From assembly GCA_947466585.1 (NCBI GenBank), contig CANIEU010000003.1:124001-188000 (forward strand): a stretch of 64,000 bases of DNA, in the 5' to 3' direction. Below are positions 3,515 to 44,367 of this stretch, piece after piece. The notes under the pieces are model-generated. The model was not told the origin of the DNA and made no database searches. It saw nothing but the letters and a program-made list of their open reading frames with translations. The stretch's first letter is position 1, and each line of letters starts with the position of its first letter. This DNA comes from Fibrobacterota bacterium. GTDB taxonomy: Bacteria; Fibrobacterota; Fibrobacteria; UBA11236. A program made the position numbers and the translations under genes.

Positions 3515-3535
3515 ATTCGAGCGAGAAGGTGTTCA

Positions 3536-3570
3536 GAAAGGCCGCGCAATAGCGCGGCCTTTCTTTTTTT
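3536..3570 (+). terminator. Rho-independent terminator of the rpsF-rpsR-rplI operon
   Basis: A 12-bp stem (GAAAGGCCGCGC, loop AATA, GCGCGGCCTTTC) is followed directly by a run of seven T residues, 22 nt after the L9 stop codon. Confidence 0.95.
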
Positions 3571-3621
3571 AACCAAGGTCCAGACTTTTCTTCGCTGCGC
3601 CGGGCGGCGACCGTCGCCCCG

Positions 3622-3972
3622 CGGCGTTAGCCCTCCTCGTCATACTCCCGGTGCGACCGCGTCGGGCTGCCTAGCGGGACTCGGTCGGCGCTCCGGCGTC
3701 CCTGTTTGGCCGTGCGTTTTTCCGTCAAAACTTTCTATGAGGTTTTGGGAAACCTGCCTCTGCCCTTGAAGACGGAGAAAACGAAGAGCGACGAAGAATA
3801 ACGAAGCGATCCAAAGAGCCACGAAGAAAAACAAAGAGGACCAGAGAGATACAAAGTGAGGCGCAGAGCGGCGAAGAAATACGAAGAATAACGAAGAGCC
3901 CGGGCGAGAACGAGCTAGACAAGGCGGCCCGACGCGGTCGCACCGGGAGTATGACGAGGAGGGCCAACGCCG
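3622..3972. repeat. 351-bp element with 50-bp terminal inverted repeats
   Basis: The terminal segments 3622-3671 and 3923-3972 are reverse complements over 50 nt with two mismatches (GGCAGCCC against GGCGGCCC, and GGCTAACGCC against GGCCAACGCC). The interior has no credible gene; its right half (3781-3900) is a 12-unit decamer array described separately. No target-site duplication was recognised at the ends. It fills most of the 493-nt gap between rplI and dapB. It could be a non-autonomous (MITE-like) element or a large cruciform-forming structure. Confidence 0.85.
3781..3900. repeat. Twelve-unit decanucleotide array, consensus ACGAAGANNN
   Basis: From 3781 the sequence divides into twelve consecutive 10-nt units with strong similarity, such as ACGAAGAGCG, ACGAAGAATA, ACGAAGCGAT and CCAAAGAGCC, ending ACGAAGAATA, ACGAAGAGCC. 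The strand is strongly purine-rich. The phase is kept over all 120 nt, close to one DNA helical turn per unit. It lies inside the 351-bp inverted-repeat element. Confidence 0.85.
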
Positions 3973-4050
3973 TATGGCGCGTTCGCAGCCTGGGCACAGG
4001 GAACGGTCAGGGCCCTAATTTATCAGGCCTTCGCCGATTCACACCGCAAT

Positions 4051-4063: not shown

Positions 4064-4879
4064 ATGTCCAACCAACCAACCGAAATAATCGTCCTAGGCG
4101 CCAAGGGCCGCATGGGCCAAATGGTCCTGTCTGCATGTGCAAAGGCCATGCGCGAAAAGCCGGATAGCCTGAAGGTCATCGCCGCCGTTGAATACAAGGG
4201 CTTCCCCGGTGCGTCGGGAACGCTTACGGTCGACGGTCTCGAAGTCCCCTTCACCGACGATCTGGAATCCGTCGTCAAGGCGGGATCCGTGCTCATCGAT
4301 TTCACGACGCTCGACTCGTCGTTGCAGGCGCTTGAAATCGCCGAGCGCAAGGGCGCGGCGCATGTGCTCTGCACCACCGGCTTTACGCCCGAGCAAAAGG
4401 CGCGCATCGGCGCTGCGGCGCAAAAAATTCCCGTGCTGTTCTCGCCCAACATGAGCATCGGCGTGAACGTGCTCTTCAAGGCCACTGAGGCGATCGCGCG
4501 CGCGCTGGGACCCGACTTCGATGTGGAAATCATCGAGGCGCACCACAACCAGAAAAAGGATTCTCCCAGCGGTACCGCGCTCGGCTTCGCCGAAGCCGTG
4601 GCGCGCGGGCATGCCGTGAAGCTGGAAGACAAGGCCGTGTACGGCCGCGAAGGCATGGTGGGCGCACGCCCGCGCGGCGAGATCGGTATCCACGCGGTGC
4701 GCGGTGGTGACATCGCCGGAGATCATACGGTGTTGTTCGCGGGCGACGGCGAGCGCATCGAGATCCGTCACGTGGCGCACGGTCGTCAGGTGTTCGCCCA
4801 AGGCGCTCTGCGGGCCGCTCTGTTCCTGAAGGGACGCAACCCGGGACTCTATACGATGGCCGACGTTTTGAGCCTTTAA
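4064..4879 (+). CDS. dapB: 4-hydroxy-tetrahydrodipicolinate reductase
   Basis: Reduces hydroxy-tetrahydrodipicolinate with NAD(P)H in the diaminopimelate/lysine pathway; 271 aa. The nucleotide-binding loop is GAKGRMG (12-18), and the substrate/catalytic motif is EAHHNQKKDSPSGTA (158-172) with His160/His161 and Lys164/Lys165. Length and motif order match the family. It stands alone, with no other dap genes nearby, between the inverted-repeat element and a Tat-exported dioxygenase. It has no Shine-Dalgarno and may be translated from a leaderless transcript. Confidence 0.95.
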   Translation: MSNQPTEIIVLGAKGRMGQMVLSACAKAMREKPDSLKVIAAVEYKGFPGASGTLTVDGLEVPFTDDLESVVKAGSVLIDFTTLDSSLQALEIAERKGAAHVLCTTGFTPEQKARIGAAAQKIPVLFSPNMSIGVNVLFKATEAIARALGPDFDVEIIEAHHNQKKDSPSGTALGFAEAVARGHAVKLEDKAVYGREGMVGARPRGEIGIHAVRGGDIAGDHTVLFAGDGERIEIRHVAHGRQVFAQGALRAALFLKGRNPGLYTMADVLSL

Positions 4880-20916: not shown

Positions 20917-21078
20917 AGGGCACCTCTAATGATGGATTTCGTTGTGAGAATCGAGCGAGACCGAGGCCAAGTAGGAGCGCGAAGCAGGCGATATGTTCGA
21001 ATATCGCCGATGGAGCGGGACGAACTTGGGCGAAGGTCGCAGCCGATTTGAGTAGAAAGACATCATTAGAGGTGCCCT
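20917..21078. repeat. 162-nt element with perfect 18-bp inverted ends between trpG and trpD
   Basis: AGGGCACCTCTAATGATG (20917-20934) and its exact reverse complement (21061-21078) bracket the intercistronic region. Inside is a second hairpin, GGCGATAT/ATATCGCC (20987-21008), flanked by imperfectly complementary stretches, so the whole segment can fold into one long structure. One end abuts the trpG stop and the other contains the trpD ribosome-binding site. It may be an inserted palindromic element or a regulatory RNA structure. No gene is seen in it. Confidence 0.8.
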
Positions 21079-43802: not shown

Positions 43803-43894
43803 GAAATCAGAAATCAGAAATCAGAAACTGGACATCTAATTAAACCTAAGATTGCCCAATCTCTTTTTTCATATTTCCGATTTCATATTTCAGA
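43803..43894. repeat. Inverted pair of heptanucleotide arrays (GAAATCA family)
   Basis: The left arm is (GAAATCA)x3 followed by GAAACTG (43803-43830). The right arm is TTTCATA, TTTCCGA, TTTCATA, TTTCAGA (43867-43894), whose reverse complement is GAAATAT/GAAATCG-type units. The arms flank about 36 nt between two convergent genes, directly after the beta-CASP gene stop. The right arm is 25/28 identical to 1316-1343. Confidence 0.75.
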
Positions 43895-43896
43895 TT

Positions 43897-44367
43897 TTAA
43901 CCTCGCGTTCCCTGAATCACTTCGACGAGCTGTTCGAGTGCCTTGCCCCAACCCTCGTGGAAGCCTATCTCCTCGTGCTTCTTCTTCGTCTCTTCATCCT
44001 TGTGCAACGCCGTCGCGCGATAGCGCGTACCGTTGCCTTCGGGAATGATCTCCACGATCCCCGTCATGAACGGATTTGCAGAGGGGCGAAATCCAGCCAA
44101 TAAAGCGTCGGTGAAAACGAGTTTGCGACCGGGAACGGCTTCGAGCACGCAGCCCATGTTCGGGAACTGCGTTCCATCGGGGCCTTGCATTGTGGTGTTG
44201 AAGGCGCCGCCCGGTACAAGGTTCACTTCACACGCAACGACCTTCCACGGATCGGGGCAGAACCATTTCATCAGGATTTCAGGCGTGGTCCACGCTTCGT
44301 AAACCTTGGCGGGCGGCACGTCGACGAAGCGTTCGAGAACGAGGTCGTAGGTATTTTCGGTGGTCAT
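43897..44367 (-). CDS. SRPBCC (AHSA1-like) domain protein
   Basis: 156-aa helix-grip protein of the AHSA1 group: LERFVDVPPAKVYEAWTTPEILMKWFCPDPW, then EVNLVPGGAFNTTMQGPDG and GWGKALEQLVEVIQG. These bind hydrophobic ligands; the biological role of the group in bacteria is poorly known. It is the third gene of an ArsR-SRPBCC-SRPBCC set, an arrangement common in bacteria where the ArsR protein controls the downstream SRPBCC genes. Confidence 0.87.
   Translation of the reverse strand: MTTENTYDLVLERFVDVPPAKVYEAWTTPEILMKWFCPDPWKVVACEVNLVPGGAFNTTMQGPDGTQFPNMGCVLEAVPGRKLVFTDALLAGFRPSANPFMTGIVEIIPEGNGTRYRATALHKDEETKKKHEEIGFHEGWGKALEQLVEVIQGTRG

Follow-up and report, generated by a model that had tools for sequence, protein, structure and literature searches.

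The inverted repeats lying between rplI and dapB in the window (the whole 64,000-nt stretch of DNA analyzed here) are probably an inverted pair of copies from a dispersed family of non-coding hairpins, REP/MITE-like in character. The identity of this family is well supported and its mechanism moderately so; on our best reading the family is new, and no description of this hairpin element was found in open-licence papers. The two inverted arms, at 3622–3672 on the minus strand and 3922–3972 on the plus strand, match over 51 nt with two mismatches, in agreement with the initial annotation, which had described 50-nt inverted ends with two mismatches; a looser alignment (3615–3672 against 3922–3979) reaches 58 nt at 91%. 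Because each arm is the middle, or core, of a hairpin unit of ~104 nt, the feature is wider than the 3622–3972 first delimited, and its true extent is ~3599–3994. The left unit occupies 3599–3703 on the minus strand (100.1 bits over 104 positions of R1, the covariance model built from six arm sequences) and the right unit 3892–3994 on the plus strand (98.7 bits), both being members of the R1 training set. An array of twelve decamers (3781–3900, plus strand), supported by its phase and its column conservation, precedes the right unit as an expanded 5′ tail, and its last decamer overlaps the first bases of that unit. On the left, the boundary is the intrinsic terminator of rplI, located outside the element (3535–3564, plus strand; a 13-pair stem followed by a T-run), and dapB follows at 4064, the genes having been named by reading their translations. 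The placement beside the ribosomal operon, also given in the initial annotation, was confirmed, the feature standing directly after rplI and beyond its terminator. A third unit was detected in the window at 20943–21048 on the plus strand (R1 43.5 bits, outside the training set), between trpG-like and trpD-like genes that were likewise named from their translations. This third unit carries copy-specific inverted flanks of ~27 nt, which take in the Shine–Dalgarno region of trpD.

The alignment of the six arms yielded a hairpin of ~104 nt with 33 pairs, 12 of them showing changes on both sides. A larger alignment (A3) comprised 46 distinct copies from this genome and its congener G003, after the removal of 2 of 48 rows that were duplicate readings of the window units, and here both-sided changes were observed in 29 of the 33 pairs. 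Standard pairs filled 93.6% of its 1466 cells, against 27–38% when the structure was slid, and the covariation score reached 0.486 in comparison with 0.149 for shuffled and 0.03–0.06 for slid alignments. In a further alignment (A6), made of 42 matches from 40 loci that are mostly the best of each genome and therefore form a non-random sample with non-independent orthologous copies, 21 of 26 pairs changed on both sides, 95.8% of the cells paired and the covariation score was 0.612 (0.180 shuffled). It is this pairing under strong evolutionary conservation that makes the hairpin matter. The internal loop is conserved as well, with GA-N-GNA on its 5′ side and GA-N′-GA on its 3′ side, N and N′ covarying: in A3, columns 44:146 form a standard pair in every one of the 45 rows that have letters there (CG 25, GC 16, AU 4). 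GA occupies columns 42–43, on the 5′ side of the loop, in 45 of 46 copies, and in 44 of 46 another GA comes directly 3′ of the inner stem; these positions may form sheared G·A pairs. Rfam 15 returned no match at gathering score in 20 loci, and none near threshold for the window units.

Copies of the hairpin are dispersed through this genome (2.24 Mb in 28 contigs), where a DNA search with the arm located it at additional sites that lack a comparable partner arm. R1 produced 16 matches here, two of which are the window arms and a third the unit at 20943–21048, together with 30 matches in G003 and none in the congeners G001 and G002. Across 41 genomes R1 matched 24, many of these matches being weak (E 1e-4 to 0.01), and weak matches also came from genus g4, presumably Fibrobacter, in family f3. 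A second model (R2), built from 17 copies of g4 and its neighbors with both-sided changes in 20 of 26 pairs, matched 40 of the 41 genomes of g4, at 0 to 14 copies per genome, and 86 of 158 genomes in the phylum. The same model also matched this genome, G003 and the window's own units (left, 3609–3686, E 0.016; right, 3896–3994, E 0.0002), which links the two sets of hairpins. The hairpin element spans the class Fibrobacteria, and the phylum gains a large, strongly covarying hairpin family. A search of the viral_contigs collection with the core pattern gave no match, hence no support for viral carriage.

The array retains its place in this family as a tail of the hairpin unit. The initial annotation had reported twelve 10-nt units in exact phase, and this holds: the longest run of decamers is 12 in the window and 2 in each of 20 window shuffles. 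All twelve decamers share C2, A5 and G6, positions 9–10 are near random, and ACGAAGA is exact in 5 of the 12. The consensus is a purine-rich ACRRRGNNNN, whose number before the unit is variable and optional, the window array being the longest such tail among the copies here. A search for the decamer array, proposed earlier, was carried out in six genomes with a pattern of three consecutive ACRRRG decamers; all 3 matches lie immediately 5′ of a hairpin unit, and the reversed pattern had no match in the same genomes. Among the flanks of the 46 copies, ACRRRG occurs 58 times on the 5′ side and 11 times on the 3′ side, and 9 of the 46 copies show a second one a decamer ahead of the unit. The unit itself opens with such a decamer in its first ten bases, which often read ACAGGGACGC. 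The adjoining matches, the 5′ excess and the unit's own first decamer together identify the array as a variable-length tail of the unit. Bending had also been proposed for the array, and this part did not stand: under a wedge model with Bolshoy-type parameters, its predicted curvature was 38.5 degrees against 29.9 ± 16.3 for 120-mers of the window, 27% of which are at least as curved, while a synthetic phased A-tract control reached 292 degrees. A phased A-tract bend was consequently rejected; on our best reading the array is a product of tail growth and no DNA-bending device.

Evidence that the copies insert comes from occupied and empty sites at two loci. Between parA and parB, G003 carries the element and 6 of 6 other genomes, in which the parA stop overlaps the parB start, do not; between nuoA and nuoB, the element is present in this genome and absent from 5 of 5 other readable genomes (G002 being unreadable there). 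Empty sites, whose lack in close relatives the initial annotation had regarded as weakening a mobile-element view, are thus found at both loci, with occupancy in 1 of 7 and 1 of 6 genomes, respectively. Both insertions lie directly after the upstream stop codon, and in both the end of the inserted element bears a Shine–Dalgarno-like sequence ahead of the downstream gene. The sequence ATGA(G) stands on both sides of the parA–parB insertion, and nothing clear was seen at nuoA–nuoB; the genome-wide search for the arm delivered the multiple copies that had been anticipated for a MITE without the clear target duplication. A constant terminal inverted repeat is absent, as the ends differ among copies; 9 of 46 have strong inverted flanks of their own, mostly copy-specific, compared with 3 of 2070 cross pairs. 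RAYT/Y1 (PF01797) had no match in the four congeneric genomes (G000–G003) and the IS630-type DDE_3 (PF13358) was absent from G000, the genome of the window, and from G003, leaving mobilization by RAYT or IS630 unsupported in these two.

The orthologous rplI–dapB gap of G003 holds a single unit (L072), in the orientation of the left window unit. These two share an outer insertion, CCGACC, and differ in their cores. The two window cores, in turn, are near-identical and both carry an unusual C·A mismatch, the units differing outside the core. From these sequence comparisons, the left window unit is probably ancestral and the long-tailed right one an additional copy. Conversion between these two inverted units may have homogenized their 51-nt cores.

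The position of the element relative to genes was most regular in g4. Stop adjacency was defined by an ORF of at least 100 codons whose stop lies between −8 and 12 nt (mostly between −1 and 4) from the element 3′ end, given enough flank, and such a converging ORF was found for 30 of 40 copies, against 1 of 42 on the opposite side. The host genes belong to seven families: pgk (9), GH94 phosphorylase (8), glnS (5), Na/Pi transporter (3), purB (3), argD (1) and DUF1846 (1). By eye, an intrinsic terminator comes next in several cases, read in the mRNA direction, and the unit junctions vary between TAA, TAG, TGA and others. A codon-usage gene caller conflicted with the direct count, placing only 5 of 42 copies beside a stop; it was set aside because it had chosen ORFs antisense to pgk and other genes, and the pgk, glnS and other proteins end at the element. 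In this genome and G003, the bias toward the stop side is weaker, at 16 of 46 against 7 of 45 when ORFs are counted (p 0.09) and 22 of 46 against 6 of 46 when genes are called heuristically (p 0.004). Neither unit of the inverted pair in the window is stop-adjacent, the left one being separated from the rplI stop by 84 nt and the terminator. Placement downstream of a stop, as in REPs, is clear in g4, weaker in this genome and G003, and absent for the window pair. With so near base-accurate and orientation-specific a site after stops, it becomes testable whether the element takes part in termination or acts on mRNA 3′ ends.

Substitution patterns bear on which strand, if any, is selected as a folded molecule. 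On the strand opposite the adjacent mRNA, G·U exceeds A·C with 38 against 7 cells in A6 and 29 against 15 in A3, a bias that becomes weak when distinct types are counted (13 against 5 and 15 against 11). This excess on the antisense strand fits poorly with the mRNA as the selected folded strand. G·U is in any case rare in A3, with 29 cells against 1343 Watson–Crick cells. Within single loci, both-sided changes stood to one-sided changes as 254:39 at pgk, 188:19 at GH94 and 9:14 at glnS, and as 7:3, 7:1 and 10:2 at the three loci common to this genome and G003. Two-sided changes can be produced by template switching, as described in PMC8794818, and can also arise by conversion between paralogues. 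Because tens of its copies at fixed loci can be aligned, the family lends itself to the question of how long hairpins evolve, by single changes or by two-sided switches.

Several other readings were weighed against a dispersed hairpin family. The initial annotation's proposal of a single MITE of ~351 bp, with 50-bp terminal inverted repeats and a bending array, is very improbable and was rejected, as the arm occurs elsewhere as a solo unit of ~104 nt and the rplI–dapB gap of G003 contains one such unit. The arms and array are real, the repeats are multi-copy, a degenerate second unit appears by eye to face the C9 copy, and BrickBuilt is an example of a MITE that contains a minisatellite (PMC4596501, as there described); the other 14 matches in the genome nevertheless have no recognized facing partner at a like distance, the curvature is ordinary and no common terminal repeat exists. 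What survives of that proposal is the repetitive and mobile nature of the sequence, borne out by the 16 and 30 matches and by the empty sites at parA–parB and nuoA–nuoB. We also regard as unlikely a structured RNA with a dedicated function, either a cis element or a 3′-UTR sRNA, whose double GA loop would bind a protein or ligand and control metabolic genes, dispersal being secondary. The strong covariation (29/33 pairs in A3, 21/26 in A6), the recurrence beside the same genes across species (pgk 9, GH94 phosphorylase 8, glnS 5) and the presence in 40 of 41 g4 genomes speak for an RNA of this kind. Set against them are the insertion polymorphism among congeners, widely different host genes, a copy number of 0 to 14 per genome, the lack of a match in Rfam and the G·U bias favoring the strand opposite the adjacent mRNA.

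An excess of both-sided over one-sided changes as marked as that at pgk and GH94, the rarity of G·U, the location of conserved GA mismatches on one strand and the copy-specific inverted flanks (9/46 against 3/2070) would all suit a structure of single-stranded DNA, comparable to HUH-enzyme substrates or attC sites, in which the hairpin of the purine strand is recognized by a recombinase. This account seems quite improbable to us, given that Y1 transposase is absent from this genome and G003 and that template switching or paralogue conversion leads to the same arithmetic with no recognition of single-stranded DNA. Under the dispersed-family reading, by comparison, the element would spread as DNA through some mobilizing activity and survive mainly at gene ends, the hairpin would act at the mRNA 3′ end in the manner of a REP, as a decay barrier or by affecting the ribosome as it terminates, and the stems would be kept complementary by conversion between copies or by two-sided template switching. 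Counting against this reading are the absence of PF01797 and PF13358 from this genome and G003, the unclear target duplication, the window pair standing away from a stop codon, the weaker stop bias in this genome and G003, and the G·U excess opposite the adjacent mRNA. A bolder form of it can be put forward only tentatively: the class-wide hairpin, locked in orientation at the base after stop codons, might be a translation-termination or mRNA 3′-end device, its stems being rewritten on both sides at fixed loci while the double GA loop stays constant. If true, this would be a natural case of DNA template switching or conversion upholding a functional hairpin.

Among the known systems that come closest are REPs and BIMEs, which, as described in PMC12306157 and PMC3733652, are dispersed, palindromic and intergenic, often lie at most 15 nt from a stop, sometimes supply it and, in BIMEs, form paired inverted copies as in this window. 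The same sources state that a REP no more than 15 nt from the stop codon is able to stall the ribosome, and that in GTAG REPs the codon itself is often supplied by the element. The present hairpin differs in its length (~104 nt against 20–40 nt), in having no constant GTAG/CGTC tag, in the absence of RAYT from this genome and G003, and in its extensive both-sided covariation and decamer tail. Chunjie, Correia, RUP and ERIC elements are likewise short, non-coding and multi-copy, situated between genes or inside operons, and the Chunjie MITE has also entered an operon (PMC10969869, as far as its account extends); unlike them, the element here lacks a terminal inverted repeat common to its copies, a proven target duplication and, among the families searched (PF01797, PF13358), a matching transposase. 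BrickBuilt of Porphyromonas gingivalis resembles it in being a repeat element that includes a tandem array, yet with 23-nt units in the description of PMC4596501, whereas the 10-nt units here have three invariant columns and two random ones and are joined to a hairpin that covaries. The L17 downstream element, as presented in PMC2864571, is also structured, downstream of a coding region and hard to assign to a strand; the hairpin described here differs in having many host genes, in varying among congeners and in its absence from Rfam 15.

The apical core is also found in other phyla within long palindromes, for which homology and a likeness confined to the core are both possible. A Deltaproteobacteria MAG (G041, JACPFM01) harbors 24 near-identical palindromes of ~190 nt with CTAG ends (L158–L181), among which one-armed forms recur, cut at query positions 49–51 or 145–147. 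Palindromes of full length that share the apical core and have CTAG at their ends or close by were likewise observed at L027, L028 and L029 (in G006, G009 and G008, respectively) and at L104. The CTAG-ended palindromes may be IS630-type MITEs. Three copies of G003 (L069, L079 and L080) contain a second short repeat (GAGTTGAAAGTATGAG with GAATCAC) inside or beside the hairpin units, and palindromic repeats of the GTCATCCCCGC type accompany the units in the 5′ flank of L011 and the flanks of L079. Short tandem repeats of 7/14 nt (TTTCATATTTCTGA, GAAATCA and TTTCATATTTCAGA) recur at two distant places of the window itself, at 1316–1346 and at 43803–43827 with 43867–43897.
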